Source: an uncultured bacterium
Lineage (GTDB): Bacteria > Acidobacteriota > Thermoanaerobaculia > Thermoanaerobaculales > Thermoanaerobaculaceae
Reading direction: 5' to 3'
Assembly (NCBI GenBank): GCA_937924755.1
Contig: CALEVZ010000065.1
Location: forward strand, 1 to 43,051
DNA: 43,051 nucleotides
Position numbers and translations under genes: made by a program. Positions 10,875 through 26,000 of this stretch are shown here, piece after piece. A model generated the notes under the pieces. The model was not told the origin of the DNA. It did not search any database and saw only the letters and a list, made by a program, of their open reading frames with translations. The number at the start of each line of letters is the position of its first letter. Positions within the stretch are counted from its first letter, which is position 1.

Positions 10875-11507
10875 TCAGCGAAACTTGGGCGGTGGCGGCG
10901 GGTCGGTGGGCTGGGGTCCCGGCGGAGGCGGTCGAACTCCCCCTTGTCCCTGGCGCTGGGGATCGAAGATGAACTTCCAGTCGCAGTAGCGGGTGCGGCC
11001 TTCGTACATCTTGATGGAGGTCTCACAGGAGCGCGAGGCGACGCCGATGATGGGTCCGCGAGCCTGGGGGCTCGGCACCCCGCCGCCGAAGGCGCCCCGC
11101 GGAGTGGGGGTGGGCGGAGGAGCGGCACCACCGCCTCCAGGCGCACCCTGCCCCTCTTGGCCGAGAAAAACCGGCACCCAGTCCGCCTTGCCGGTGATGG
11201 GGTCCACCCACTGCTTGCGCAGGCAGCGTGGCTTGGCCTTGTACATCTCCTCCAGCGAAAGCGGAAATCGACCGAAGCGGGCACGAAACAACCGCACACC
11301 TTCCACCATTTGCTGCCCGCGAAAGATCAGCTCCTCCTCCATCTCGCGCTTGCGCTGGAAGGTAGCCGTCTGCACGGCAAGGGTGAGGAAGACGGCCATC
11401 ACCGCCAGGGTGACCACCATGGCGGCGAGGGTGAAGCCAGCCTCTCGCCGCGGCGCCGGTCGCCGATCCCCCCGGGGGGAGCTACCAGTCGGAGTAGCGG
11501 GTGCCAT
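10875..11507 (-). CDS. Minor prepilin-like protein lacking Glu5, with Pro-rich loop
   Basis: 210 residues. A 24-residue basic leader ends in Gly24, followed by FTLAAMVVTLAVMAVFLTLAV, a class III prepilin cleavage site and N-terminal helix. The usual Glu at mature position 5 is Ala29 here; in type II secretion systems Glu5 is missing from the GspK-type tip pseudopilin. A helix (KREMEEELIFRGQQMVEGV) and RFPLSLEEMY resemble the GspG head. Residues about 115-150 are a PPPTPTPRG-type low-complexity loop, followed by SIKMYEGRTRYCDWKFIFDP, a segment I associate with acidobacterial secretion pseudopilins, and a polyproline tail. It overlaps the previous prepilin gene by 26 bases and is the last gene of the operon. 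Confidence 0.75.
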   Translation of the reverse strand: MAPATPTGSSPRGDRRPAPRREAGFTLAAMVVTLAVMAVFLTLAVQTATFQRKREMEEELIFRGQQMVEGVRLFRARFGRFPLSLEEMYKAKPRCLRKQWVDPITGKADWVPVFLGQEGQGAPGGGGAAPPPTPTPRGAFGGGVPSPQARGPIIGVASRSCETSIKMYEGRTRYCDWKFIFDPQRQGQGGVRPPPPGPQPTDPPPPPKFR

Positions 11508-11931
11508 CCAAGGCCGTCTCGTCGGAGCCGGAACGCACGTCGATGATCCCGACTCCCGCCTCTCGTTGCCGCTCGTCCTCCTCGTCGGAGGCCTCCTGGA
11601 AAATCTCCACCCACGTGCTGTCCGACCCGGTGATGTCGAGTGGCTTGCGCCGCATGTACCCCATGCTCACCAGCTCGTCCAGGGAGGTGGGGAAACGCTG
11701 GCGGTCGGCGTGGAACTGGTCGATGCAGGACCGCATGGTGAAGAGGTTTTCCTTCAGCGCCGCCTCGCGAGCCCGCTGGGGCGCCGTGCGCATGGCCGGT
11801 ACCGCGATGGTGGCGAGAATGCCGATGATCGCCACCACGATGATCAACTCGATGAGGGTGAAGCCGCGCTGGCGGGCGGTGCCGACGCGGTCCACGCGCG
11901 GGCAATGCAGTCGAGCGTTGCGCATGCTCAC
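11482..11931 (-). CDS. Prepilin / GspG-like pseudopilin
   Basis: 149 residues from GTG 11931, which overlaps the TGA of the preceding prepilin gene by four bases (GTGA); ATG 11925 is an alternative. A 23-residue leader with several Arg ends in Gly, followed by FTLIELIIVVAIIGILATIAVP, a canonical type IV pilin N-helix with Glu5. The globular part contains RFPTSLDELVSMGYMRRKPLD and ends ETALDGTRYSDW, the GspG-type C-terminus. It should be inserted in the inner membrane, cleaved and N-methylated by a prepilin peptidase not present in this window, and assembled by the PilB/PilC pair of the same operon. It could be a major or minor subunit; sequence alone does not say. Confidence 0.85.
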   Translation of the reverse strand: MSMRNARLHCPRVDRVGTARQRGFTLIELIIVVAIIGILATIAVPAMRTAPQRAREAALKENLFTMRSCIDQFHADRQRFPTSLDELVSMGYMRRKPLDITGSDSTWVEIFQEASDEEDERQREAGVGIIDVRSGSDETALDGTRYSDW

Positions 11932-12404
11932 CAGTCCCTGTACTTGCTGCCGTCCAGGGCAGTGGCCTCGGACAGCGAGTACACGTCGTAGACGTTCTGT
12001 CGCCCCCAGGAGCGGGAGTCCGGCTCGTCCTGGTACGAGCGCAGCCCCCACTCGGCCTTTCCGGTCATGGGGTCCATGGGGATGCGCCGCAGGAATTTCC
12101 TCTTCACCGTCTGGCCGACGATGTCAACCCCTTCGACCAACACCTCAAGCTCCTTGGGGTACCCTTCGGTGCCCAGATCCACCTGAATCATCCCCTGATC
12201 GGCCAGTCGTTTGTGTTCGTCGATGGCGTTGCGCATCAGGCGCAGCGCCAGTCGCAGCTCGGCCTCGCGCTCCCGCTTGACCATGAACCTGCCGGTGGGC
12301 ACCGCGACGGCGGCCAGGATGGAGATCAATGCCACCACCATGACCAGTTCGGCCAGGGTGAAACCGCGCGGGGCGCGTCGGGGCGAGGTTCCCTGGAGTT
12401 TCAC
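11928..12404 (-). CDS. Prepilin / GspG-like pseudopilin
   Basis: 158 residues. The start is GTG 12404, in a GTGA overlap with the secretin stop; it gives a 14-residue basic leader (MKLQGTSPRRAPRG) ending in Gly14, followed by FTLAELVMVVALISILAAVAVP with Glu5. The helix continues as KREREAELRLALRLMRNAID, and the head contains GYPKELEVLVEG and RIPMDPMTGKAEWGLRSYQDEP, the DP-x-TG-x-x-W-G-x-R-S-Y signature of GspG-like pseudopilins. It ends EATALDGSKYRDW. As the first prepilin after the secretin, and the closest match to GspG, it is the best candidate for the main filament subunit. Confidence 0.88.
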   Translation of the reverse strand: MKLQGTSPRRAPRGFTLAELVMVVALISILAAVAVPTGRFMVKREREAELRLALRLMRNAIDEHKRLADQGMIQVDLGTEGYPKELEVLVEGVDIVGQTVKRKFLRRIPMDPMTGKAEWGLRSYQDEPDSRSWGRQNVYDVYSLSEATALDGSKYRDW

Positions 12405-14809
12405 GATCCGGTTCCTCCCGCCGGCAAGGCCACCACCGTCGCCGGCCGCGCGGCCACGCCGCCGGCTGGCCCGGCGAAGATCACCGGCAGCTCTCCCACC
12501 TCCCGGGGCCGCACGGTGAGGGTGAGCAGCGTGCGCGTGGCGCGGGCCGTTCCCTGCCACGAGGCGGTCACCCATCCGACGGCCGGTGAATGCGACACCC
12601 CCACCTGCACACTGCCGGAGGTGGTGTCGAGTTCCCCGCCTTCGATGCGCACCACCTCCAGCCGCGCCGGGTCGTAGGCCAGGTGCAGCGGTGGCTTGAC
12701 CCCCAGCTCGCCGGGCTCCAGCACCACCGTGAGTACCGCCTCCCGCCCCACCACCGCCGGCAGCCGCGCCGGGTAGAAGACCACCCGCGCGAGACCAGCC
12801 GTATCCTCAGGGAAGGTGGTCGGGGTGAGTACTTCGGTGGCGGTCGCCAACGCCATGGTGGAGTCCAGACTCTCGCCATCCCCCCCGGCGTTCGGCACGG
12901 CGGCGGCCTTGCCGCCGGGGGGAGCAAAGCGCGCCCGGGGGAGACGAACCTCTTCGTCCTCCCGGATTCCCCCGACGGGTGGCGTCGCCTCGGGTGGGGT
13001 CTCCACCGGGGGCTCCTGAAAGTCGCCGGCTTCCGGGTTGATGCCGATGGGCAGGCGGGAATCAAACGGCCCTTCGGTGGCGTGGGGGGAGCGGATGCGC
13101 GGCGAGTTGCCGAAGATGGTGATGCGGTTCTCGGTGCCCACCCACACCGGAGCCAGATCCTCCTCGGTGATGTCGGGATTGCGGATGATGTGCGGCGTCA
13201 ACGTCAGGATGAGATCCTGTTTCGAGACCTCCTTGCGGTTGGAGCGGAACAGGCCGCCGATCACCGGAATGTCGGAAAGCCAGGGAAAGCCGGCGTTGCT
13301 GTCCGAGCGCCGGTAGCGGTACAACCCGGCGAGCAGGGAAGTCTCGCCGTTTTTCAGGCGAATCACCGTATTGATGGTCCGGGTGCCGATCTTGGGCTGC
13401 CGCTGCCCCTGGGACACCTCCACATACTCCCCCAGCTCCGACACCTCCACTTCCAGCTTCAGGGTGACCTCGTTGTTGTGGTGCACCCGCGGCTCGATGT
13501 TGATCTTGATGCCCACGTCCTGGTACTGGAAGGCGGTGATGGGGACGATGTTGCCGCCGATGGTCTGGGTGGTGTTGAAAGTGGTGGTGGGGATGGGCAC
13601 CCGGTCACCGATCACCAGGTTGCCCTTCTCCCCTTCGGTGATGCGCATCTCCGGCTGCGCCAAAGTCTCCGCTTCCCCCGCTGACTTGATGAGATTCACG
13701 GTGACGCTGGGGACCACCACCCCCCACATGGAGCGGGTGATGTCGTCCAATTGGGGGAGGGGAATGCGGGGGTTGTCCTTGGCGCCGGTGATGGGGGTGG
13801 GGTCGAAGGTGAAGGGCGCCGCGTAGGTGGACAGCGATACGCCGATGTCCCGCAGCTTGTTGGAGTCCACTTGGATAAGCTCGATGCCGATCATCACTTC
13901 GGCCTTGGCCTTGTCGTTGGCGTTGATCAACCGCTCGGCAATGGCCACCTTGTCGGCGGTATCGCGGATGACGATGGAGTTTAGCTGCTCGTTGGTGGAG
14001 ATGCGGCGGGCGTCGATGAGCGCCCGCAGCATGTTGTTCACGTCCTTTACATCGGCGTTGGAAAGGAAGAACGTCTTGACGACCAGATCCTCATAGTCGC
14101 GACGATTCTGCGGAGTATCTTCGACGATGATCAGCGTCCGCTCGTCCAACACCTTGTAAAAGTGGCTGGCCGCCTGCATGACGCTCTCCAGTGCCTGCTG
14201 GGCGGAGACGTTTTTCAGTTCGATGGCGAGTTGATTGTCCTTCAACTTGGGGTCGAACAGGAGATTGATGCCGAAAGCGTCGCCGATCGCCTTGTAGATA
14301 TCCTTGACCTTGGTTTGGTTGGGAAAAACCAGGGAAATGGGTTCATGGGAGGTGGGGCTCAGGATAGGCGGCTTGACCTTCATCTCGGCGGCGGCTTTTT
14401 TCATCGCGGCGAGCTTGGCCTCCCCCCCCTCCTGCGAGGCGACGGCGAGGTCGCGCTGCGCCTTGCGCAGCTCCAACTCGGCGTACTGATGGGTGGGGTC
14501 GAGCTGAACCGCCATTTGCAGCTCGCTGACGGCGGGCCGCAGAGCCCCCACCTCGGCCAACTGCATGCCTCGTTTGAAGTGTTCCTCGGCGGCGCGCCGG
14601 CGCGCCCGCTGCAAGTGCATCTTCAATTTGAGGTTGCCGGGATCCTTGGCGAGGGCCTCCATGTAGTAGTACACCGCGGCGTCCCAGTTGTCGGTCTGGG
14701 CGGCGTCGCTCGCCTGCTTGGTCAAGCGATAGCTGGCGCACGAGGCGGCCACCGTCACCGCCGCGATCAGAATGAAGAACCTGGTGTGTCGCATCGTTTT
14801 CACGTTCAC
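12401..14809 (-). CDS. Secretin (PilQ/GspD family) with N-terminal TPR-like and C-terminal cohesin-like domains
   Basis: Outer-membrane channel of the filament or secretion machine. 802 residues from GTG 14809, which forms a GTGA overlap with the PilP stop (GTG 14803 and ATG 14794 are alternatives). A signal peptide ends in VAASC, so Cys24 may be lipidated. Residues 30-120 are TPR-like (NWDAAVYYYMEALAKDPGNLK). An STN/N0-like module is at about 155-225 and a NolW-type ring at about 238-305. The secretin core is at about 365-543 with AGEAETLAQPEMRITEGEKG, VGIKINIEPRV, LLAGLYRYRR and FPWLSDIPVIGGLFRS. After a Pro-rich linker, residues about 673-795 look like a cohesin-type beta-sandwich (VGREAVLTVVLEPGEL; LHLAYDPARLEVVRIEGG). 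Secretin-cohesin fusions occur in acidobacterial and deltaproteobacterial GspD; the role of the tail is unknown. Confidence 0.9.
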   Translation of the reverse strand: MNVKTMRHTRFFILIAAVTVAASCASYRLTKQASDAAQTDNWDAAVYYYMEALAKDPGNLKLKMHLQRARRRAAEEHFKRGMQLAEVGALRPAVSELQMAVQLDPTHQYAELELRKAQRDLAVASQEGGEAKLAAMKKAAAEMKVKPPILSPTSHEPISLVFPNQTKVKDIYKAIGDAFGINLLFDPKLKDNQLAIELKNVSAQQALESVMQAASHFYKVLDERTLIIVEDTPQNRRDYEDLVVKTFFLSNADVKDVNNMLRALIDARRISTNEQLNSIVIRDTADKVAIAERLINANDKAKAEVMIGIELIQVDSNKLRDIGVSLSTYAAPFTFDPTPITGAKDNPRIPLPQLDDITRSMWGVVVPSVTVNLIKSAGEAETLAQPEMRITEGEKGNLVIGDRVPIPTTTFNTTQTIGGNIVPITAFQYQDVGIKINIEPRVHHNNEVTLKLEVEVSELGEYVEVSQGQRQPKIGTRTINTVIRLKNGETSLLAGLYRYRRSDSNAGFPWLSDIPVIGGLFRSNRKEVSKQDLILTLTPHIIRNPDITEEDLAPVWVGTENRITIFGNSPRIRSPHATEGPFDSRLPIGINPEAGDFQEPPVETPPEATPPVGGIREDEEVRLPRARFAPPGGKAAAVPNAGGDGESLDSTMALATATEVLTPTTFPEDTAGLARVVFYPARLPAVVGREAVLTVVLEPGELGVKPPLHLAYDPARLEVVRIEGGELDTTSGSVQVGVSHSPAVGWVTASWQGTARATRTLLTLTVRPREVGELPVIFAGPAGGVAARPATVVALPAGGTGS

Positions 14810-15375
14810 CTCGCCAAAGCCACGGTCTTCGTGACGCTGTCGGGATAGCCAACGTAGGCGATGGTCACGGCCAGGGCCGTCACCTCGCGCACGATGAACT
14901 TGCCGTCGATGATCTCGCCGCGGGGCACGACCATGATGGAGTTGCCATCGCGGAACACCGCCACCGGCAGCCGATCGGGTCCCAGCCAACCCACGAAGGT
15001 CAGGTTGAAGTTCGGGGGGGGTGGCAGCCGTTTACCGTCCACCAGGATACCCGGCGGGGTAGGGGTGGGCTGCGGGCGCGGTGGCAAGGTCGGCACCGGC
15101 GTCGGAGTGGGGCGGGGATCGGGAGTCGGGGTCGGCGGCGGGCCGAAGGCGAAGGGGTTGCGGCCCCCCGGTCGAGGGGATGGCAGTGCCCGCACCCCGC
15201 CTCCCTCCCACCCCAGCTCCGGCACCGAGTAACTGCCCACCCTGATTTCCGTGGTCGAGGCGCCGCCGATGCCCTTGACCAGGGATGGGCGCATCCGCAC
15301 CACCACGGCCACCACCAGAGTGGCGAGCAGGATGACCAGCAAGACGAGCTGGCGGGGATTCGATCTACTCGCCAC
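14806..15375 (-). CDS. PilP/GspC-like inner-membrane protein with Pro-Thr linker
   Basis: 189 residues. One N-terminal membrane helix (RQLVLLVILLATLVVAVVV) leaves the rest in the periplasm. Residues about 75-110 are a Pro-Thr linker (PPPTPTPDPRPTPTP) long enough to cross peptidoglycan, followed by a small strand-rich domain (FNLTFVGWLGPDRLPVAVFRDG, MVVPRGEIIDGKFIVREVT) of the GspC homology-region/PilP type, which normally binds the secretin N0 domain. The start is GTG 15375, overlapping the PilO stop by 11 bases; the stop overlaps the secretin start. Identification rests on topology, fold pattern and position. Confidence 0.75.
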   Translation of the reverse strand: MASRSNPRQLVLLVILLATLVVAVVVRMRPSLVKGIGGASTTEIRVGSYSVPELGWEGGGVRALPSPRPGGRNPFAFGPPPTPTPDPRPTPTPVPTLPPRPQPTPTPPGILVDGKRLPPPPNFNLTFVGWLGPDRLPVAVFRDGNSIMVVPRGEIIDGKFIVREVTALAVTIAYVGYPDSVTKTVALAR

Positions 15376-15994
15376 CGATCACCTCCTGCCTGTGGGTTAT
15401 CTCCTCGACCCCCAGCTCGGCCATCAAGGCGCGATCCATGTCGGTGAAATAGGTGCTCACGGCGAGCTGAACCCCCACGTCCAGAGTGGTCTGTTGCTCG
15501 TCACCGCGCAGCGACAGCCGCTCGATGATGGCCAGCTGCGGCGACTCCTCCAGCAGGTAGATGCAGCGCCGGATGTTTTCGTACATCCCGGTCAAGCTAT
15601 AGACGGCGGTGAACTGCACGAAGCCGGTCTTTTCATCCCTGCGGGCGGTGTAGCTGATGCGCTCCGGCGTCAGGCCGGCGCGCCTGGTCCGCTCCACCAC
15701 GTCCACCAGGAACGGCACCAGCCGATCCTTCATCCCGCCCACCTGCTCCGAGCGCACCAGCTCCAGCTTCGAACGCAGCTCTTCGACGGCGCCCTTCGCC
15801 CCGGTGAGAGCGCGCTGGTGTTGCTCCAGTCTCGTGACGTCCTCCTCGGCCGCCGCCACCTGCCGGGCCAGCCACGTCCCCTGGCCGATGACCGCGCCTC
15901 GCAAGCCGGCGAGCCAGACGACGTTGGCCACCACCAGCAGGGCGGGAGGGACCCACACGAACCACAGGCGCCCCCAGGCGCTGCCGCCTCTCAT
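15365..15994 (-). CDS. pilO: PilO/GspM-like inner-membrane alignment protein
   Basis: 209 residues from ATG 15994, in an ATGA overlap with PilN. One membrane helix (WFVWVPPALLVVANVVWLAGL), a coiled coil (residues about 40-90, RQVAAAEEDVTRLEQHQRAL) and a C-terminal ferredoxin-like periplasmic domain with the PilO hallmark LTGMYENIRRCIYLLEESPQLAIIE region. In type IV pili PilO pairs with PilN and links the cytoplasmic PilM ring to PilP and the secretin. Length and architecture fit the family, and it lies between PilN and PilP as expected. Confidence 0.85.
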   Translation of the reverse strand: MRGGSAWGRLWFVWVPPALLVVANVVWLAGLRGAVIGQGTWLARQVAAAEEDVTRLEQHQRALTGAKGAVEELRSKLELVRSEQVGGMKDRLVPFLVDVVERTRRAGLTPERISYTARRDEKTGFVQFTAVYSLTGMYENIRRCIYLLEESPQLAIIERLSLRGDEQQTTLDVGVQLAVSTYFTDMDRALMAELGVEEITHRQEVIGGE

Positions 15995-16563
15995 GGGCGC
16001 CCCCCCGGGAGGTAGCGGACCGCCAGCTGGAAGCGGTACCCTCCCGGATTGGTGGCGCTGGGCGCCTCCTCCAGCGCCGGCACCGGCTCGGCGAACGAGG
16101 GATCGTTGAACAGGCGGGTGAGGAGCTTGAGCCACGAGTCCCGCCCCGCCGCCACACCCACCAGCGCCAGCCGCACTCTCCCCTTGTCATCCACCGAGGG
16201 AGAGATCGACACCAGCCGCACATCCCAGGGCAACACCCGCTCCACGTCGGCGAGCATCGTCGTCCATGCCCAGCTCCGCTTCCCGGCGATCTGTCCGAGA
16301 GCGGCGGTATCTCCCTGCAGCTGTTTCCATGGCACAACGGCGAGGGTTCGGTTCAGCTCTCCGACGGCCTGCGCCACCACCTCGCGCCGCTGCTGGAGGA
16401 CCGTCAGCCGCTGGCGCAAGCCCTCCTCCTCCTCGCGCTTGAGGAGGAACTCCGACACCGATATGACGGTGAGCGCCACCGCTGTCACGAGCAGGGCGCC
16501 GCCCAGCACCCACACTGGGCGGGTGTTGAGAAACGGAGCGGAAGCCAGATTCGGACGACGCAT
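15991..16563 (-). CDS. pilN: PilN-like inner-membrane protein
   Basis: 190 residues. The short cytoplasmic head RRPNLASAPFLNTRPV contains the N-L-A-(S/T)-x-P-F-x-N element by which PilN-type proteins dock into PilM. It is followed by a membrane helix (VLGGALLVTAVALTVISVSEF), a coiled coil (LKREEEEGLRQRLTVLQQRR) and a periplasmic ferredoxin-like domain (WAWTTMLADVERVLPWDVRLVSISP). The ATG at 16563 shares one base with the PilM stop codon (TGATG), so translation is coupled. PilM and PilN are separate genes, as in type IV pili, rather than fused as in GspL. Confidence 0.85.
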   Translation of the reverse strand: MRRPNLASAPFLNTRPVWVLGGALLVTAVALTVISVSEFLLKREEEEGLRQRLTVLQQRREVVAQAVGELNRTLAVVPWKQLQGDTAALGQIAGKRSWAWTTMLADVERVLPWDVRLVSISPSVDDKGRVRLALVGVAAGRDSWLKLLTRLFNDPSFAEPVPALEEAPSATNPGGYRFQLAVRYLPGGRP

Positions 16564-17462
16564 CACTTCTCCCCCTCCCACACCCCACCCAGCAGCGCCA
16601 GGTGATCCAGCCGCGAGCCTCCCTCCGGCGGCACCCGGCCGGCGCCGGCTTCGAGCATTTTCACCGTCACTTTGGGAGTGCCGGCGCTCCACCGAGCCAC
16701 CACCTCGCCCCACTCCTCCCCGGCCGCCAGCCAGACGGACACCGGGCCGCCCTCGGCAGCTTGCAGGTGCTCGACGCTGCGAGTCAGCTCGTGGCACAGC
16801 AGTGCCTCGGCGCGTACCTGGCTGGCCGGCAGGACCTTCTCGCGCAACAAGGTCAGGCGACTGCCGGAGACCACCGCGATGCCCAGCGACCGGGCCTCCA
16901 CCGCCACCACCACCCCGCGACCCCGACCAGGGGCCAGCGCCGCCACCGCCAGGACCAGCGGCTCGATCCGCCCTAACCTGACTCCCGCACCGGCGAAGAT
17001 CTCCTCCAGGGTGGCCAAGGGCCTGTCGAGGGCGAGCAGGATGAGGTGTCGCCCGTTGTCGCCGAGTTGCAAGTAATCCAGGCGAACGTCCTCGGGCCGG
17101 CAGGGCAGCAGCTTCTTCAGCCGCCAGCGCAGCTGCTCCTCGGCATCCTGGCGCTGGCGCGGCAACACGCCCACATCCACCACCAGCGACCGCATCCAGT
17201 TGTCGGGCAAGGTCAGCGAGGCGTGGCGGGGGACCTTGTCCAGGCGCGCCAGCAGTGCCCGCAGGGCGCCTTCCAGGCCAGCCCGTTCGATCTGCAGCAC
17301 CCCCACCGGCCCCAGCTGGAACCATGGCGCCGACAGGGGGACCGCGGTCACCTGCAGGAGTGCGTCGCGTCGGCTGGACAGGCGGCCGTAGGCCAGGTGG
17401 TCGGCAAACGCGGCGAAGGCGTGGGGCGGAGCAGGCGTGTGGAAGAGGTGTGTCAGCTTCAT
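16563..17462 (-). CDS. pilM: PilM-like actin-fold pilus assembly protein
   Basis: 299 residues, cytoplasmic, from ATG 17462 in an ATGA overlap with the PilB stop. The middle region fits the PilM pattern: SLTLPDNWMRSLVVDV, then AEEQLRWRLKKLLPCRPEDVRLDYLQL, then LEEIFAGAGVRLGRIEPLVLAVAAL, then VVVAVEARSLGIAVVSGSRL. The N-terminus is shorter than usual and I do not see the canonical phosphate-binding D-x-G-S-x-x-x-K loop, so nucleotide binding is uncertain. PilM normally forms the cytoplasmic ring that couples PilB and PilC to PilN/PilO. The assignment depends partly on position between PilB and PilN. Confidence 0.75.
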   Translation of the reverse strand: MKLTHLFHTPAPPHAFAAFADHLAYGRLSSRRDALLQVTAVPLSAPWFQLGPVGVLQIERAGLEGALRALLARLDKVPRHASLTLPDNWMRSLVVDVGVLPRQRQDAEEQLRWRLKKLLPCRPEDVRLDYLQLGDNGRHLILLALDRPLATLEEIFAGAGVRLGRIEPLVLAVAALAPGRGRGVVVAVEARSLGIAVVSGSRLTLLREKVLPASQVRAEALLCHELTRSVEHLQAAEGGPVSVWLAAGEEWGEVVARWSAGTPKVTVKMLEAGAGRVPPEGGSRLDHLALLGGVWEGEK

Positions 17463-19093
17463 TCGACGAAGGTCACCTTGTTCACTTCGCGCAGCGTGGT
17501 GACGCCCGCGAACACTCGTTCCAGGGCTGACTCGCGCAGGAAGGTCATGCCCTCGGCCTTGGCCGCCCGCTTGATCTCGGCGGCCGGTCGCTTGTCCAGG
17601 ATCAGGGCGCGAATGTTGTCCGACATGTCTAAAAGCTCCGAGATCGCCGTGCGCCCTAAAAACCCAGTGCCGTTGCACTCGATGCAGCCGGCCCCCTCGT
17701 AGAAACGCACCCCCCGCACCATCTCCCGGGTCAACCCGGAGTCGTCCAGGAGAGCGTCAGACACCTGCACCTCTCGCCGGCAGTGGGGGCAGATGCGGCG
17801 CACCAGTCGTTGTGCCAGCACGCAGTTCAGCGCCGACACGAAGTTATAGAGGTCCACGTCCATGTTGAGAAACCGCCCCAGTACGTCCACCACGTTGTTG
17901 GCGTGCACGGTGGTGAACACCAGGTGGCCGGTGAGAGCTGACTGGACCGCAATCTGCGCCGTTTCGGCGTCGCGGATCTCACCCACCATGATCTTGTCCG
18001 GGTCGTGACGCAGGATGGACCGCAACCCCCGCGCGAAGGTCAACCCCTTCTTCTCGTTGACCGGAATCTGGGTGATCCCCTGCAACTGGTACTCCACCGG
18101 GTCCTCGATGGTGACGATCTTGTCCTCCTCGGAGACGATCTCCGACAGGCAGGCGTACAGGGTGGTGGTCTTGCCCGAACCGGTGGGGCCGGTCACCAGC
18201 ACCATCCCATATGGCTCGCGGATGAACTTGCGCAGCTTGCGCTTGGCCTCCTCGTCGAAACCCAGCACGTCGAGGCTCAGGTTGCGGAACTCGCGGTTGG
18301 CCGACTCCTTGTCCAGGATACGAATGACGGCATCCTCGCCATGTACGGTGGGCATGATGGAAACGCGGAAGTCGATGGTCCGCCCTTTCAGCCGCAGCTT
18401 GAAGCGGCCGTCCTGGGGGATGCGCTTTTCCGCGATATCCAGCTCCGACATCACCTTGATGCGGGAGATGATGGTCGCATGGTGCCGCTTGTCGATGGGC
18501 TCCATGGCCTGATAGAGCACGCCGTCGATGCGGTACTTGACCAGCACCTCGCGGTCCCGTGTCTCGATGTGGATGTCCGAGGCGCGCCGCTGGATGGCGT
18601 TGAAGATCACCGTGTCCACCAGCTTGATGATGGGCGAGGTGTCGGCGGTGATGCGGTCGATGGTGAGTGTCTCCTCGCCGTCCTCGCTCTCCTGCACCAG
18701 CTGGATGCGGAAGTCCTCGGTGGCCTCATCCAGCACCCGCTGGGTGGACTCGGACTTCTCCAGAATCTCCGAGATCTTGCCAGCGGGGCCCACCGACACC
18801 TCCAGGGGTGCGCCCAGCACCAGCTCCAGCTCGTCCATCACCGAGGGGCTGGAGGGATCGGCCATCACCCCGACGATGACGTCCCCTTCCCGCCGCAGCG
18901 GCAAGAAAAGGTAGCGCAGCATCATGTCCACCGGGATTTGCCGGAACAGCTCGGCTTCCACCCGGAACTCACTGAGGTCGTTGACCGGCAGTCCCAGCCG
19001 GGCGGCGATCTCCCGCGCCCGCTGCAGGTCCTCTTCCTCCCGGGACAGTCCCCACAGCGGCCGCGCTCCCATGGACAAGGAGGTCTCGCTCAT
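17459..19093 (-). CDS. PilB/GspE assembly ATPase
   Basis: Hexameric cytoplasmic motor that drives filament polymerisation. 544 residues: an N-terminal MshEN/GspE-N domain (about 25-140), the core N2 domain with SDIHIETRDREVLVKYRIDG, Walker A GPTGSGKTTTLYA near residue 300, the Asp box TIEDPVEYQL, Walker B-region DKIMVGEIRDAETAQ, and the His box GHLVFTTVHANN. A tetracysteine zinc site is formed by CPHC (about 430) and CIEC (about 468), typical of PilB/GspE and absent from PilT. The ATG at 19093 is one base after the PilC stop. It is the only ATPase of this family in the window, so retraction would need an ATPase encoded elsewhere. Confidence 0.95.
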   Translation of the reverse strand: MSETSLSMGARPLWGLSREEEDLQRAREIAARLGLPVNDLSEFRVEAELFRQIPVDMMLRYLFLPLRREGDVIVGVMADPSSPSVMDELELVLGAPLEVSVGPAGKISEILEKSESTQRVLDEATEDFRIQLVQESEDGEETLTIDRITADTSPIIKLVDTVIFNAIQRRASDIHIETRDREVLVKYRIDGVLYQAMEPIDKRHHATIISRIKVMSELDIAEKRIPQDGRFKLRLKGRTIDFRVSIMPTVHGEDAVIRILDKESANREFRNLSLDVLGFDEEAKRKLRKFIREPYGMVLVTGPTGSGKTTTLYACLSEIVSEEDKIVTIEDPVEYQLQGITQIPVNEKKGLTFARGLRSILRHDPDKIMVGEIRDAETAQIAVQSALTGHLVFTTVHANNVVDVLGRFLNMDVDLYNFVSALNCVLAQRLVRRICPHCRREVQVSDALLDDSGLTREMVRGVRFYEGAGCIECNGTGFLGRTAISELLDMSDNIRALILDKRPAAEIKRAAKAEGMTFLRESALERVFAGVTTLREVNKVTFVE

Positions 19094-19094
19094 C

Positions 19095-20303
19095 TCATTG
19101 CACCCTCTGAATGAGTGTAAACATGGGCAGGTACACCGACAGCAGCAGGCCGGAAATGATCAGGCCCATGAGCACCAGCACCGCCGGCTCCACCAGGGTG
19201 ACGATCCGCCCCAGCCGCATTTCGATGGTTTCGTCGTAGAACCGACTGACGTTGAACAGCATCTGCTCCAGGGCTCCGGTCGCCTCGCCCACCTGCACCA
19301 TGGCCAGGGAGAGGTCTGGAAACAGCTGCGTGGACTGCAGGGAGGTCCACAGCGCCTGGCCCTCCCGTACCCGCGGCGCCACCCGCAGGAGCACCTTGTG
19401 CACGAAACGGTTGGTCACCGTGGAGGTGGCGATTTCGATGGCGTTGACCAGCGGCGTCCCTCCCGCCACCAGGGTGGCCAGGGAGCGCACGAACTGGGAG
19501 AGGGCGAAAAGGTGAAACACCTCCCCCAGAAACGGCCAGCGCAGTTGCCAGCGGTCCCAGGAGATACCCCCTCGCTCCGAGCGCAGCCAGCGGCGCAGCA
19601 GCAGGCCCGCCGCCAGCAGCCCACCGCCCACGTAGGCGATGTGCTGCTGCAGCCAGTGGGAGCCGGCGATGATGGCCTTGGTGATCAGCGGTAGCTCCGC
19701 GGCGAAGCCCACGTAAAAGGAGGCGAAACGGGGGATCACGTAGGTCACCAGCAGCGCCACCAGGCCGAAGGCCAGAGTCATCAGCACCGCCGGGTAGGTG
19801 AGCGCGGAGGTGACCTTGCGCCGCACCCCTTCCATCATTTCCTGGTAGCGCACGTAGCGCTCCAGCACCTGCACCAGCTCGCCGGAGCGTTCGCCGGCCA
19901 TCAGCGAGGCGCTATAGAGCCGCGGGAAGGTCTTGCCCTGGGCGGCGAACGCCTCCGACAGCGCCGCTCCCGACTTCACCTCCTCCAGCACTCGCCCGAG
20001 CATCTGACGCATGAAGGAGTCGGTCTGCGCCTTCTGCAGCAGCTCCAGGGACTGCAGCACCGGGATGCCGGCGGCCAGCAGGGTGGCGAGCTGCTGGTTG
20101 AAGGCGAGAAAGTCCAGCGAAGAGATGTGTTCGCGCCGGCGCAGGAAGGACAGGGACAGTCCGCGGCGCGCCGGGGTGATGCGGAAAACATGCAACCCCT
20201 TGCTCTCCAGCTCCCGGCGCAGGGATTCCTGGGTCGGGGCGTGGTGGCGCTGCTCCAGCACCAGCCCGTCGGCGGTGCCCACCCGGGCGACGAACTCGCT
20301 CAC
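19095..20303 (-). CDS. PilC/GspF polytopic inner-membrane platform protein
   Basis: 402 residues, the usual size. The start is GTG 20303, in a GTGA overlap with the upstream gene; a longer reading is possible but would add an unrelated extension. Two GspF domains are visible: FLAFNQQLATLLAAGIPVLQ...RSGEL in the first half and ALSQFVRSLATLVAGGTPLVNAI...VGEATGALEQML in the second. Each is followed by membrane segments (PAVLMTLAFGLVALLVTYVIP; AYVGGGLLAAGLLL; EPAVLVLMGLIISGLLLSVYLP). It anchors the assembly ATPase and translates its motion to prepilins. Confidence 0.93.
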   Translation of the reverse strand: MSEFVARVGTADGLVLEQRHHAPTQESLRRELESKGLHVFRITPARRGLSLSFLRRREHISSLDFLAFNQQLATLLAAGIPVLQSLELLQKAQTDSFMRQMLGRVLEEVKSGAALSEAFAAQGKTFPRLYSASLMAGERSGELVQVLERYVRYQEMMEGVRRKVTSALTYPAVLMTLAFGLVALLVTYVIPRFASFYVGFAAELPLITKAIIAGSHWLQQHIAYVGGGLLAAGLLLRRWLRSERGGISWDRWQLRWPFLGEVFHLFALSQFVRSLATLVAGGTPLVNAIEIATSTVTNRFVHKVLLRVAPRVREGQALWTSLQSTQLFPDLSLAMVQVGEATGALEQMLFNVSRFYDETIEMRLGRIVTLVEPAVLVLMGLIISGLLLSVYLPMFTLIQRVQ

Positions 20304-20989
20304 CGGGCCCCCTCCCGCTCCGCCAGCAGCACCAGCACCAGCGCCCGGTTGGCCTCCTCCGAGCGCGCCGCTCCCAGCACGAAGGTCTGCCCTGTACGCA
20401 GCGTCAGGGTGGTGCGAAGGAGCGGCTGCAGTCTCTCGGCGCCGGCGTCGGCGACGACGCGGCGCGCAAACTCCAGCTGGGCGAGCTGCAGGCGGTCGCC
20501 GTCCTGGGGCACCGCCCGCACCACAAAGCGAACGTGGTAGCGGTCGGCCACCGCGGCTTCCACCGTGGAGCCGTCGGCGGCGGTGACCACCAGAGTGTCC
20601 AGCTCCGAGTAGGACGTGAAGCGAAAGAGCTGCTGCAGCTCGCTGCCCACCCCGGAGATCAAGGGCGCCGCCGGGCCCGCAGTGGGCGGTGTGGTGGAGG
20701 CGAGCAAGACCCGCAGGCGGATGGTGTAGTTGGGCGCCGCCACATCCCACGCCGCCACCACCGCCGCGATCCGCTCCAGCACTGCGGCGCTGTCACGCAC
20801 GGTGATGGCGTTGAGCTTGGGCTGCAGGAGTACGCTGCCCTCCGGCGACAGCAGCGGCTCCACCAACAGCGCAGCCTCGCGCGCCGGGCGGAAGTGCAGC
20901 TGAAAGACCCGCACCTGCTGATCGGACGCCGCCGCAAGCCACGGCACCGCCGCCATCACCGCCAACCCCAGCGCCGCCACCCGCGCCAC
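20300..20989 (-). CDS. Exported protein with NolW/secretin-N-like domain
   Basis: 229 residues with a signal peptide (MARVAALGLAVMAAVPWLAAAS). Residues about 25-85 carry VRVFQLHFRPAREAALLVEPLLSPEG...LNAITVRDSAAVLERIAAVVAAWD, the ring-building motif of secretin N-domains. A beta-rich region follows, ending RTGQTFVLGAARSEE...ALVLVLLAE, which echoes the secretin core T-G-x-x-x-x-L-x-G strand. There is no pore-forming secretin domain. The start is GTG 20989, four bases after the anti-sigma stop. It could be a small accessory ring, a pilotin-like partner of the secretin in the same operon, or a secretin relic. I do not know a named family with this exact layout. Confidence 0.7.
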   Translation of the reverse strand: MARVAALGLAVMAAVPWLAAASDQQVRVFQLHFRPAREAALLVEPLLSPEGSVLLQPKLNAITVRDSAAVLERIAAVVAAWDVAAPNYTIRLRVLLASTTPPTAGPAAPLISGVGSELQQLFRFTSYSELDTLVVTAADGSTVEAAVADRYHVRFVVRAVPQDGDRLQLAQLEFARRVVADAGAERLQPLLRTTLTLRTGQTFVLGAARSEEANRALVLVLLAEREGAR

Positions 20990-20993
20990 TGCC

Positions 20994-21500
20994 CTACAGC
21001 TCCAGCCCCGGATCGATGATGAACGCCACCTGCACTTCGCCCGAGGCGCTGCCGGCGAACTGATACAAGCGCACGTGGTCCCCCTCCACTTCCACCGCCG
21101 CCGGCGCCAGGGGAGGGGAGATCTGCACTAGCAGCGGCCGCTGCGCCACCGCCGGCCCCTCGGGGGGACCTTGGCGCAGGGTGCCGAGACCGACCAGCAG
21201 CACCCCGACCACGGCAGCGGCTGCCGCCAGCCAGCGGCGCCGGCGCGACCTGAGGCGGACCTCCAGACGACGCTGGTGCACCGCCGCCAGGACCTCGGAA
21301 ACGAAGGCATTGTCCTCCACCTGGCCGACCTGTCGCTGCAGGGCGTTGGCCAGCAGCAGTGACGGCTCGTGCTCCTGCGCGGCCGCCCGGCAGGGAGCGC
21401 ACTCGCGCAGGTGGGTGCGTACCTCCCGCTCCGCCTCCGGCCCCAGCTCCATGGCCAGGTAGCGCCCGAGCATCCGCTGCACTTCGGCACACCTCGTCAT
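20994..21500 (-). CDS. Zinc-binding anti-sigma factor
   Basis: 168 residues. The N-terminal zinc-finger (ZAS) domain has the HX3CX2C motif (His30, Cys34, Cys37 in THLRECAPC), which binds and inhibits an ECF sigma factor. A basic stretch RLRSRRRRW leads into one membrane helix (about 89-108), and a 60-residue periplasmic domain follows, including a segment (VRLYQFAGSASGEVQVAFIIDP) like the sensor tails of other anti-sigma factors. The ATG at 21500 is in an ATGA overlap with the sigma gene, the standard arrangement for such pairs. The signal is presumably sensed in the periplasm, where the secretion apparatus works. Confidence 0.9.
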   Translation of the reverse strand: MTRCAEVQRMLGRYLAMELGPEAEREVRTHLRECAPCRAAAQEHEPSLLLANALQRQVGQVEDNAFVSEVLAAVHQRRLEVRLRSRRRRWLAAAAAVVGVLLVGLGTLRQGPPEGPAVAQRPLLVQISPPLAPAAVEVEGDHVRLYQFAGSASGEVQVAFIIDPGLEL

Positions 21501-22114
21501 CGCCGGCCTCCCTGGGGAAGGTATTCGGGGTAACGGTGCGCCAGCTCCCGGCGCAGCACGGCCCGCGCCTGGAACACGTGGTTGCGCACCGTCGCCTCGC
21601 TACATCCCAAGATCTGGGCCACCTCCGCGGTGGCCAGGCCTTCCACCTCGCGGTAGAGGAACGCCGCCCGTTGGCTGGGGGTCAGCTTCTCCGCCAGCTC
21701 GGCGAAGATCCCCTGCACCTCCTGCTCCGCCAGCTCCCGCGGCGCCGCCGCCCCGACGCGGTCCGACACCAGACGCAGGTGCGAGGTGTGGGTGCGCTCG
21801 CGGCTGTCGCGGGAGCGCAGCACGTCGATGGCGATGTTAGTGGCGATGCGGTACAGCCAAGTGGAGAACGACCACGCCTCATCGTAGCGTTGGAGGTTTT
21901 CCCAGGCGCGCACGAAGGCGAGCTGGGCGACGTCACGGGCCTCCTCCATGTCGCCGAGCACGCGACCGGCGCAGCGCCGCACCCCCGCCTGATGGCGGCG
22001 GACTAGTTCGGCAAAAGCCGTCTCGTCCCCGTCCCGCGCGGCTCGCGCCAGCTCCCGATCGTCCCGCTCCCGGGTCACGTTCGGCCTGATCTGTTGAAGG
22101 CGCAGCCACGCCAT
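21497..22114 (-). CDS. ECF-family RNA polymerase sigma factor
   Basis: 205 residues from ATG 22114, chosen for its strong Shine-Dalgarno GGAGGTAGGA six bases upstream. Sigma region 2 is visible as FAELVRRHQAGVRRCAGRVLG, then EARDVAQLAFVRAWENLQRY and SFSTWLYRIATNIAIDVLR. Region 4 is LTPSQRAAFLYREVEGLATAEVAQILG with the helix-turn-helix CSEATVRNHVFQARAVLRREL. There is no region 1 or 3. It is translationally coupled to its anti-sigma factor and heads 11 further envelope-machine genes with gaps of at most four bases. Autoregulation is likely from the general behaviour of such pairs, but I see no typical GGAAC/CGT ECF promoter upstream. Confidence 0.93.
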   Translation of the reverse strand: MAWLRLQQIRPNVTRERDDRELARAARDGDETAFAELVRRHQAGVRRCAGRVLGDMEEARDVAQLAFVRAWENLQRYDEAWSFSTWLYRIATNIAIDVLRSRDSRERTHTSHLRLVSDRVGAAAPRELAEQEVQGIFAELAEKLTPSQRAAFLYREVEGLATAEVAQILGCSEATVRNHVFQARAVLRRELAHRYPEYLPQGGRR

Positions 22115-22181
22115 GGCACGTCCTACCTCCCCCTCACGTGTACGAGACGCCGCCCTCCGGCGTTGGGGCGGCGGGAGTATA
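22115..22181 (-). promoter_or_regulatory. Promoter, leader hairpin and ribosome binding site of the sigma/pilus operon
   Basis: On the minus strand TATACT (22181-22176) is a good -10 with no matching -35 (CCCTCC at the expected place). The predicted leader contains an 8-bp GC stem (22148-22155 with 22166-22173, 10-base loop) and then GGAGGTAGGA (22130-22121) before the ATG at 22114. The leader overlaps the 3' end of the LuxR-like reading frame. The hairpin could stabilise the long mRNA or end transcription from upstream; it has no T-run. Confidence 0.5.
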
Positions 22182-23054: not shown

Positions 23055-26000
23055 CTACTGGCCGCGCAGGCCCAGCGAGCGCAGATGGTAGAGCAGCCCC
23101 TGGCGGGTGAGGCCAGCGCGACGGGCGGCTTCGCTGCGGTTGCCGCCGCTGGCGGCCAGTAACGCGGTGAAGTACTCGGTAAGGAAGCGATCGCGCGCCG
23201 CGGCGAAGCTCTCCAGCGGTGGGGCAGGGGCGGGCGCGACCACGCCGAAACGCTCGGGGCCGAGGACCTCTCCCGCTCCAGCGGCCACCACGGCGCGACG
23301 CACCACCCACTCCAGCTCCCTGGCGTTGCCCGGCCACGCTGCCTGGCGCAGGGCCTCGAGCGCCGCCGGCGCCAGCCGTACCCCGGGGCGGTCGCATTCG
23401 CGGGCCGCCCGCTGGCAAAACAGCACCGCCAGTTCCTCGATGTCCTCCGGGCGTTCGCGCAGCGGCGGGACGTGGATCACCGCGGCGGCCAGGCGGTAGT
23501 AGAGATCCGCACGAAACTCCCTTCGCGCGGCGGCTGCCGCCAGGTCGCGGTTGGTGGCGGCCAGGAAACGCACGTCGACCACCTTCACACGCGTCGACCC
23601 GAGTCGGCGAACTTCGCGCTCCTGCAGCAGGCGGAGCAACTTGGCCTGCAGCTCGAGGGGGAGCTCGCCGATCTCGTCGAGAAACAAGGTCCCGCCCTCG
23701 GCGGCTTCCACCAGGCCCTCGCGATCCTCCTCGGCTCCGGTGAAGGCGCCGCGCACCGCGCCAAACAGTTCGCGCTCCAGGATATGGGTCGGCAAGGCGG
23801 CGCAGTTGATCGGTAGAAACGCCCCCCGGCGCCTTGAAATGCGGTGCAGTTCTCTCGCCACCAGCTCCTTGCCCGTGCCGGGCTCACCGGTGATCAGGAC
23901 CGGGAAGGGAAGTGGCCCCCAGCGGACGATGAGCTCGCGCACTCGCTGGAGAGCGGCGGAGCGTCCCACCAGGCCACCCTCCATGCGGACGTCCTCTCCA
24001 CTGGGCTCGCCCTGAGAACCTACCACCCGCGCCAGGCCCTCCAGGGCGACGCGTACCACCGCGTCCACCGCTCCTCCCCAGCGAACCGTCACACCGGCGG
24101 TGGCAATGGCGCCGTCCTCGGCCTCGCCATCCCCCCAGGCACCCAGCCGGCGATCGCCGCGCCAGAGCTCCAGCCGGTGGATGCCCAGCGCACGGGCCAG
24201 CGGCTCCAGATAGGTCCTGTCGGTGCAGGCGGTGCCGGCGGTCAAGGCGCCCACCAGCGCCCGCGTCAGGGCGACGGGGTCAGTCCGTTCGACGGCACGC
24301 AGACAGGCGGCCCAGCCATCCAGGTCGGCCGCCTGTAGAACCTCCTCGGCGCGTCGCAGCAGCCCCGCCCAGGACTCGTCCAGCCTCTCGCCCGCGCGCC
24401 CGAGCAGACGAACCAGGCGCGCCAGCGCCACCGCCCCCTCGCGGGGTGCACGGGCGAGAAAGCGGGCCGCCCGATCGCGGGCCACCTCCCCCTCGCCCCG
24501 CCTCCAGGCCGCCAGGATCGCAGCGCAGGGAGCCACACCCCAGCGCGGCGGCGGCGCGGGATCCGGGTCGAGCCCGCGTTGCCCCGCCAGCATTGCCGCC
24601 GCCAGGATCCGATCACTTTCCTCTGCTCCCGCAGCGGCTTCCTCCACCTGGTCCAGATCGCCCTCGGCCAGCAACAGATGAAGCCGCAGGGAGGACACCG
24701 CCAGCGACAGCAGTACCCAGGCCGGATTGGCCTTGCAGGCCGCCTGCAGCCGTGGCAAGGCGGCTCGCACCGGCTCGAGCCGGCCTCGCACCAGCTCGCA
24801 ACGCGCCAGCTCGACGGCGTTGGCGGCCTCGTGCAACGCCGCGCCCTCACCGGGGGGCGGGACCAATCCCTTGAGTAGCTCCTGAGCCTGGCGCCAGCGC
24901 ATGAGATCGTTGGCCACCACCGCCCGGTTGGCGCGAACGATGAAGAGTGCCCGCTGACAGCCGGCACGCTCCAGCTGGGTCTGCGCCAGCCCGTAGTAGC
25001 GCTCGGCCGAGGCCGGGCGGTCGCGCGCCAGGTGAAGGGTGGCGAGGTCGGCGCACAGCTCCCCCAGCGTCAGCGGGTTCAACCCCGAGCACAGACGCAG
25101 GCCTGCACGCAGAGCGGTGCCCGTCGCCGCCTCCCGGCCCCGGCGGAAGGCGTCCAGACCTAGCAGGTGCAGGTACCGCACCTTGAGCGCGCGGCTCCAC
25201 CGTGACCAGGCCTGCCGGCGCAGCTGCCGGAGCGCCGCAGCACCCGCCAGGGCAGCCCGGTGGAGCGCAGCCTCATCGGCGAGGGCGCCCCTGGACCGCG
25301 CCGCCTCTTCGAGGAAGCGGCGCTCCTGGTCGCTGTCGCCGCGCTGGTTGGCGAGTTCCGCCGCAATTAGGGCGCGGCGGGCCGCCAATCTTGGTTCGCT
25401 GTCTCCGGCAGTGGCGAGGGCCTCGCCGGCCTGCTGTGGTACACCCGCTAGCAGCGCCCACCAGGCCTGCAGCACCTGCCAGGCTCCCCGTCGCCGCTCG
25501 GCCGGCACTGCGGCCAGCAGCTTCGCCGCTTCGGATAGCCTGCCCAGCACCAATGCCGCCTCCGCCCCCCACAGGGCCAGCGGCGAGCCCGGCGGCATCG
25601 CCCTGGCCAGGTCGAGGACCTCCAGGGCCGACTCCTCTTCGCCCAGGCGAACGGCACACCACTGCTCCAGCGGGGTCCAGGAGCCGCCGGTGAGCGCCTC
25701 GGCCACCATCCGGGCCAGTGAGCCGTCCGGTAGCGCCGTCGCCAGGGTGCGCAGGCGCTCCTCGGACGGTCGAGCGGCGGCCGGCGTGATGCGCCAGCGC
25801 TGGCCATGATTCTGGGCCAGGCCGAGGCGAAGCAGCTCGGCGCGCGTCTCGGCGGCGATGCCGACGGCCTCGCATTCGGCCGCATCCAGGCCGACCGGCA
25901 CTGCGGCCAACCAGGCGAGGGCTGAGCGGGCCGCCGCCGAGGCCAACCCCTCCCGCTCCGTCAGGTCGGCGCCTGGCTCGGGAGGCTCGACGAAGGCTCG

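Follow-up and report, generated by a model that had tools for sequence, protein, structure and literature searches.

What does a small secretin-like protein do between an anti-sigma factor and the inner-membrane platform protein of a type II secretion operon? The question is raised by the window analysed here, 43,051 nucleotides from an uncultured bacterium of the Thermoanaerobaculaceae (Acidobacteriota, class Thermoanaerobaculia; assembly GCA_937924755.1, contig CALEVZ010000065.1), in which such a protein, called NOLW or the mini-secretin below, is encoded next to an extracytoplasmic function (ECF) sigma factor (SIG), its anti-sigma factor (ANTI) and the platform protein (T2SF). The sequence, a predicted model and the gene context indicated that an ECF sigma/anti-sigma module stands at the head of the secretion operon and that NOLW is probably its third, periplasmic component; they suggest that NOLW informs the cell of the state of the secretion machine or of the envelope. 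Assignment to a signalling module was supported by the fixed gene order SIG-ANTI-NOLW, by the retention of this trio away from the secretion operon, by the gate-less core of NOLW, by a conserved promoter motif before SIG, and by a protein made of a transmembrane (TM) segment plus such a core between SIG and T2SF. The features on which the argument draws are as follows.

20300..20989, reverse strand: NOLW, the mini-secretin, 229 aa, GTG start, signal peptide at about residues 1-21 (by eye)
20994..21500, reverse strand: ANTI, zf-HC2 anti-sigma factor, 168 aa (zf-HC2, E 5.3e-8)
21497..22114, reverse strand: SIG, ECF sigma factor, likely ATG start at 22114
22137..22164, reverse strand: ECF-type promoter motif AACG-N16-CGTACACG, ending 22 nt before the likely SIG ATG
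19095..20303, reverse strand: T2SF, PilC/GspF inner-membrane platform protein, GTG start (T2SSF, E 6.7e-53)
12401..14809, reverse strand: SECR, the full secretin of the operon (Secretin, E 8.9e-42; Secretin_N, E 2.3e-11)

In the window, SIG and ANTI overlapped by ATGA, NOLW started 4 nt past ANTI, and the NOLW stop overlapped the T2SF start by GTGA. A longer open reading frame (ORF) for SIG matched the Pfam domains Sigma70_r2 (E 5.1e-17) and Sigma70_r4_2 (E 3.6e-15). The initial annotation had described NOLW as a 229-residue exported protein with a NolW-type domain, located between the anti-sigma gene and the PilC/GspF gene, and both points were confirmed. Residues 26-86 matched the Secretin_N/NolW domain (PF03958) with 38.7 bits (cut-off of 28.2; E 1.2e-9), which was the sole Pfam domain in NOLW, and the signal peptide, recognized by eye, lacked a lipobox cysteine. 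No STN, Plug or barrel domain was detected by Pfam in NOLW or in the 54 aligned members, and no second copy of NOLW was found at E <= 10 in its own genome (3.35-Mb assembly, 96.9% complete).

Inspection of the AlphaFold2 model of NOLW, which was built with 54 sequences (predicted local distance difference test score, pLDDT, of 88.7; predicted template modelling score, pTM, of 0.76; residues 1-20, the signal peptide, poor), revealed eight strands in the C-terminal half at residues 85-229, and residues 87-229 were predicted to form a gate-less, eight-stranded secretin-type core. A Foldseek search with this model gave 33 matches at E <= 0.001, and all 33 were secretins or chains of secretin complexes; for the rows 7ah9 and 9u5s, we took the matching chains to be the secretins (InvG in 7ah9). 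By VIA-align, the N-domain alone was superposed on the N-domain region of XcpQ with a Z score of 12.3 (64 residues, 1.3 Å), and the whole model was aligned with 7ah9 at Z 11.9 (187 residues, 4.6 Å) and with pIV (7ofh) at Z 11.2 (175 aligned of a 231-residue chain, 4.9 Å). For the C-terminal half, Z values of 10.4 and 9.5 were obtained with residues 85-229 against RcpA (8odn; 117 residues, 4.4 Å) and residues 84-227 against an Acidithiobacillus secretion protein (8jvb; 116 residues), respectively.

Comparison of whole NOLW with SECR by hhalign gave E 1.9e-6, mostly due to the N-domain, and the profile alignment was collinear through the core to the end. The core of NOLW was about half as long as that of SECR. 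Counting by eye between flanking motifs, the Gate-1 segment comprised ~28 residues in SECR and ~2 in NOLW, and the amphipathic helical loop ~36 and ~9, respectively; the automatic alignment placed the first gap slightly later than this count. The hairpin at the Gate-2 position about kept its length according to our reading of the sequences. As modelled, NOLW is an N-domain plus a gate-less secretin core. The earlier statement that it has no secretin core therefore stood only at the profile level, where the secretin core profile PF00263 was matched by 0 of the 54 aligned members at E <= 0.01; the predicted C-terminal half is a reduced secretin core, and the description of a ring module without core was wrong at the level of fold.

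The lack of the Gate-1 and amphipathic loops relative to SECR could also be the mark of a decayed, functionless secretin duplicate. Such decay is hardly credible, as length and domain content were conserved in the 54 members, full-length matches occurred in many families of the phylum, and the gene order was fixed. Homologues fused to a full secretin core, which the initial annotation had named as the sign of a merely truncated copy, were not present among the 54 aligned members; the architecture was kept in all of these, and a truncated secretin copy was ruled out.

The members were 217-276 aa long (starts picked by script), with Secretin_N as single domain in 54 of 54. A match to NOLW at E <= 0.001 was found in 96 of the 99 searched genomes, its own included, and in 77 of the 78 with a completeness of 90% or more and a contamination of 5% or less. 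One of the three genomes without a match (G037; G, L and f numbers denote our genomes, loci and families) carried a diverged copy at the same operon position (hidden Markov model, E 3e-10), and the remaining two were 83% and 77% complete. In a draw of genomes from the phylum, scored with at most 14 candidates per genome, 190 of 199 matched the NOLW profile at E <= 1e-4; this number overstates the NOLW family, because many of the matches were to the N-domain only and lay inside long ORFs, as from ordinary secretins. Ten loci of the whole genome-contig collection, not limited to the phylum, matched two strict peptide patterns from close relatives.

Gene context was compared in two sets of loci. 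The class set contained the window and 48 further loci, namely 40 from genome matches (mostly chosen for contig room), that of G037, and seven of family f6. The seven were added after the split arrangement of f6 described below was known, which lowers the share of fused loci. The other-class set contained 40 loci from phylum-draw matches that covered most of the NOLW profile, several such matches being omitted. It was found that SIG lay upstream of NOLW, on the same strand and within 2.5 kb, in 49/49 class loci and 38/40 other-class loci, with a contig edge only 484 and 691 nt from the start of the two loci without SIG. An ANTI profile match was present between SIG and NOLW in 48/49 and 32/40 loci, respectively. 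The arrangement, called unusual in the initial annotation, is not unusual in the class, where SIG was upstream at every locus examined. The link to the anti-sigma gene that had been proposed there was strongly supported by context: SIG was upstream in 87 of the 89 loci, the trio was kept when the secretion operon lay elsewhere, and a TM-plus-core protein stood between SIG and T2SF in two genomes.

T2SF followed NOLW within 1.5 kb in 35/49 class loci (35 of 42 without the seven f6 loci) and 28/40 other-class loci, so that 63 of the 89 loci were fused. This frequent succession, the stop/start overlap with T2SF in the window, the secretin fold of NOLW and the presence of a related core directly before T2SF in six genomes would all suit a structural role for NOLW as an accessory to the type II secretion machine, either an extra periplasmic ring or a secretin assembly factor. 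However, NOLW adjoins T2SF and not the secretin in the fused loci, and it stays with SIG where trio and machine are apart. No T2SF was found beside NOLW in 14/49 class loci and 12/40 other-class loci. The 14 class loci were those of families f6 and f8, in which the trio SIG-ANTI-NOLW stands alone; an operon-type T2SF was present at another locus in 12 of these 14 genomes (E 2.6e-103 or better), and only a second PilC-type gene was found in G049 and G079. The SIG-NOLW locus and the type II secretion operon were also apart in G154, G165, G245, G208, G252 and G099. Scanning with the NOLW profile detected no full-length NOLW at eleven separate T2SF loci (five of f6/f8, six of other classes), the separate T2SF locus of G099 giving a core-only match. 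Secretin-type presence was assessed in 30 genomes, which included six of the nine that had no NOLW match at E <= 1e-4 (G105, G201, G217, G225, G232 and G263), and a SECR-type secretin (E 4e-105 or better) was present in all six. NOLW was thus neither present nor encoded with every type II secretion machine of this type. An accessory role is distinctly unlikely on this evidence, and from the split loci and the secretins without NOLW it was judged unlikely that NOLW is a structural part of every machine.

In 44/49 class loci, SIG was preceded by a promoter motif, RACG-N16-CGTA; the other spacings between 10 and 22 each occurred in 0 or 1 locus, and mononucleotide shuffles gave a mean of 0.32 per spacing. 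Before T2SF of the fused class loci, neither RACG-N16-CGTA nor RACG-N15/16-CGTC was present (0/35), which fits a single transcript with SIG. The separate T2SF of f6 and f8 was preceded, ~40–60 nt before the gene, by RAACGTTT-N12-CGTC in 10 of 12 loci (L088-L092, L199-L205), 7 of them exact and 3 deviating at one base within the ACGTTT hexamer; the spacer was 13 in one. Ten of the 14 split trios also had the ACGTTT hexamer in their SIG promoter, exactly in 7 and with a single mismatch in 3. Compared with the SIG motif, the T2SF motif of f6/f8 has one spacer base fewer and a different last −10 base. Judging from these sequences, control of the separate f6/f8 T2SF by the same sigma factor is plausible. 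The T2SF-type pattern occurred at 0–8 sites per genome in nine genomes, with 6 of the 31 sites at T2SF, and the SIG-type pattern had 5 of 25 sites at the SIG of the trio. The possibility that another ECF gene stands behind the T2SF-type motif was rejected: 30 of the 31 sites were read (loci of up to 3 kb), and no same-strand SIG-like gene was found downstream of those away from T2SF at E 1e-3. At L244, the T2SF-type site fell within a SIG-like gene of the opposite strand.

The core was also found in a membrane-tethered form. In the protein whose gene lies directly before the separate T2SF of G099, a cytosolic stretch at the N-terminus is followed by a single TM segment (by eye) and a NOLW-type core that lacks the N-domain. 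Relatives were present in 6 of the 199 searched genomes, G099 included, which belong to families f15 and f41 (L274-L279), and T2SF directly followed the gene in 6/6 loci. In five of the six genomes, the tethered core gave a match lying within positions 83-225 of the NOLW profile (E 1e-8 to 1e-4), and the G114 locus (L275) gave no NOLW-profile match. The TM part was visible in four genomes (G099, G172, G181 and G162), the contig stopping before it in G114 and G189. In G172 and G181, both of f41, the order was SIG, TM-plus-core, T2SF, where others have SIG, ANTI, NOLW, T2SF. No SIG was detected within 5 kb before the tethered-core gene of G099, and in the other three genomes the contig ended nearby. 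The two forms can coexist, since G181 additionally carried a SIG-NOLW locus at another place (L177). As the tethered-core protein of G099 had no Pfam match, its candidate anti-sigma function was deduced from its position. At five loci of f16/f42 (L176, L179, L181, L182, L185), the ANTI position was occupied by a single-TM protein of ~100 aa without a zinc finger. At these five loci, which have a short SIG-NOLW gap, this TM gene was separate and a fusion of a zf-HC2 anti-sigma factor to a complete NOLW was not found, although the search for such fusions was not systematic.

How might NOLW act on ANTI? In the predicted model, ANTI formed a single long helix at residues 64-109, which includes the TM segment, followed by a short periplasmic tail ending QVAFIIDPGLEL. 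The tails elsewhere ended in strand-like motifs, RVVWIVDRSLDI, VMIFDENLPADL and AVVMIVDASLDV, and the last residue was L, I or V in 40 of the 48 class loci with an ANTI match. When modelled alone, the tail had pLDDT values of 43–62 and two short strands; such a poor stand-alone prediction would be expected of a peptide that folds on a partner. An ECF sigma factor thus adjoins a single-pass anti-sigma factor with a periplasmic tail, as in three-component ECF signalling. NOLW, once exported to the periplasm, would dock on the short conserved C-terminal tail of ANTI, probably by beta-strand addition, and docking would set whether ANTI is held or proteolysed, protection and exposure both being conceivable. 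Such binding is suggested by the gene context and by the TM-plus-core gene at the anti-sigma position. By analogy with FoxA/FoxR, NOLW may shield ANTI until a signal withdraws it. Released SIG would then transcribe its own gene and, in fused genomes, also the whole type II secretion operon. The candidate signals are the related secretin, its cargo and general envelope stress; because NOLW is built like the secretin of the machine, it plausibly senses the secretin or the cargo. Since the N-domain is gone when the core is membrane-tethered, the N-domain may dock and the core may sense.

Several results weigh against NOLW as the third component of a module tied to secretion. The core half of NOLW alone was not significantly similar to SECR by profile (hhalign, E 0.076), which was the reason for using structural comparison, and in VIA-align unrelated chains began at Z 8.6 (7s9y), followed by 7.2 (9kgz), so that the core matches were above them, not far. 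Three middle or TM-plus-core proteins (from L211, L176 and L184) had no significant Pfam match, and the anti-sigma activity of the TM-plus-core and zinc-finger-less middle proteins, assigned by position, is putative. Three genomes with a NOLW locus, G181, G254 and G162, had no SECR-type secretin at E <= 1e-20, and a fourth, G127, had a weak match only (1.1e-21); these four assemblies were 77–92% complete, and unless gaps explain the misses, they argue against NOLW sensing this secretin. Because each occurs without the other, NOLW is not strictly tied to a SECR-type secretin either way. Outside the class, just 12 of 38 loci had the SIG motif, and another sigma factor could read the f6/f8 T2SF motif, because its spacer and −10 base differ from those of SIG. 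Finally, an ECF motif was found before T2SF in 0 of the 6 split genomes of other classes, most of which had a TTGACA-like sequence there (by eye). From these upstream sequences, the link between SIG and secretion seems to be lost in the six genomes while the trio persists.

Some of these points would suit NOLW as a general envelope-stress sensor of SIG, its place before the secretion operon being merely historical. This alternative overlaps with the secretion-linked reading, with the same partner and a different signal and target. It gains from the six other-class split genomes with a T2SF devoid of the ECF motif, from the four NOLW genomes without a strong SECR-type match, and from the persistence of the trio alone, in f6/f8 and several other families, beside genes of varied function. 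At 10 stand-alone NOLW loci, the next gene downstream was convergent in 6 by a crude gene call. Among ten proteins neighbouring stand-alone trios at ten loci, three (f6) were PHP-domain, polymerase-X-like proteins, and the others were mutually different or had no Pfam match; because the functions vary, no new target gene emerged from them. Set against a purely historical placement are the fused arrangement of the majority of loci, the ECF-type motif before most of the separate f6/f8 T2SF genes, and the tethered core before T2SF in f15 and f41. A general stress sensor was considered rather unlikely.

If NOLW is indeed a secretion-linked third component, its origin might be sought, as a tentative possibility, in a secretin that was copied, stripped of its gate and made into a sensor. 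NOLW would then co-assemble with the channel ring or compete for it, and loss or jamming of the machine would shift NOLW on the ANTI tail, so that the assembly state of the machine would control transcription of the machine's own operon. In f15 and f41, a membrane protein at or close to the anti-sigma position would have acquired the core as its periplasmic domain, and with docking no longer needed the N-domain would have been lost.

To our knowledge, it is little understood how bacteria sense the assembly or function of a type II machine. The NOLW module is best read as three-component ECF signalling in a real and conserved variant built on a gate-less secretin. Occurring in many of the phylum's families, it gives a direct, testable handle on secretion-machine sensing, brings a new type of periplasmic partner into ECF signalling beside TonB-dependent transducers and VreA, and offers a likely role for proteins that Pfam here recognises by Secretin_N alone. 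No description of a secretin-like third ECF component in Acidobacteriota was found in the literature searched by title and abstract opening, with subscription papers mostly outside it.

The closest analogue is the PUMA3 system (VreA-VreI-VreR) of P. aeruginosa. According to excerpts of its description, VreA is mostly soluble and probably periplasmic, has an STN-type domain and no barrel, and is encoded, together with the sigma factor VreI and the regulator VreR, beside the type II operon Hxc; six genes of the hxc operon are listed as raised on VreI overproduction (PMC2729926). As far as these excerpts go, both systems combine an ECF sigma factor, a membrane anti-sigma factor and a small barrel-less periplasmic protein with secretin/TonB-type domains beside a type II secretion operon. 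They differ in that VreA consists of an STN (N0-like) and a TolA-like C-terminal domain and NOLW of Secretin_N (NolW) and a gate-less secretin core, that VreR is a regulator of the cell-surface signalling (CSS) type whereas ANTI is a zf-HC2 protein with a short tail, and that here SIG comes first, ahead of ANTI and NOLW, with the secretion genes following the trio on the same strand. NOLW is neither a TonB-dependent receptor nor an STN-bearing partner; without this defining feature, it may act like the third component of CSS but outside that family.

For FoxA-FoxR-FoxI, the signalling domain of FoxA and the C-terminal domain of FoxR were modelled as a shared beta-sheet, which was reported, in the excerpted text, to shield the anti-sigma factor from proteolysis (PMC11637429). 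There too, so far as the excerpt describes it, the contact is between a periplasmic domain related to secretins and the periplasmic C-terminal part of a membrane anti-sigma factor, as is proposed here for NOLW and ANTI. The FoxA domain is part of an outer-membrane receptor and its anti-sigma partner carries an STN domain of its own, whereas NOLW is barrel-less and the ANTI tail is a short, putatively strand-forming peptide. Each pIV subunit, according to excerpts of the structural report, contributes eight strands, divided equally between an outer and an inner barrel, and has two gate loops (PMC8563730). On the same partial basis, the secretins GspD, PilQ, InvG, RcpA and pIV resemble NOLW in an N-domain joined directly to the core, with eight strands in the core part of pIV and in the NOLW model (PMC8563730, PMC10499894). 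Unlike these, NOLW lacks the Gate-1 and amphipathic helical loops, has a shorter outer region and gave no PF00263 match.

The remaining genes of the operon in the window are listed below.

17459..19093, reverse strand: T2SE, GspE/PilB ATPase with N-terminal MshEN (T2SSE, E 2.2e-131; MshEN, E 2.3e-18)
16563..17468, reverse strand: PilM-position protein, labelled from operon position, no Pfam match at E <= 0.1
15991..16575, reverse strand: PilN-like protein (PilN, E 0.0086, below cut-off)
15365..15970, reverse strand: GspM/PilO-like protein (T2SSM_b, E 0.033, below cut-off)
14806..15375, reverse strand: GspC/PilP-position protein, labelled from position, no Pfam match
11482..12419, reverse strand: G2 and G1, two pseudopilin-like genes, each with a methylation motif at the N-terminus (N_methyl, E 2.4e-6 and 6.9e-10)

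T2SF scored 310.7 bits against the GspF model and SECR 172.2 bits against the GspD model, both below the model cut-offs, and a longer ORF of the GspM/PilO-like gene matched XpsM at E 0.00084, also below the cut-off. The MshEN domain is known to bind cyclic di-GMP; as T2SE carries it, a second control input is possible. At its N-terminus SECR has a TPR-like region (TPR_2, E 0.00034, below cut-off), and past the core it carries a long C-terminal extension that looks cohesin-like by eye. Upstream of SIG on the same strand, at 23055-27089 of the window, a 1344-aa ORF was observed, the C-terminal stretch of which resembles a sigma-54-dependent AAA+ activator by eye.

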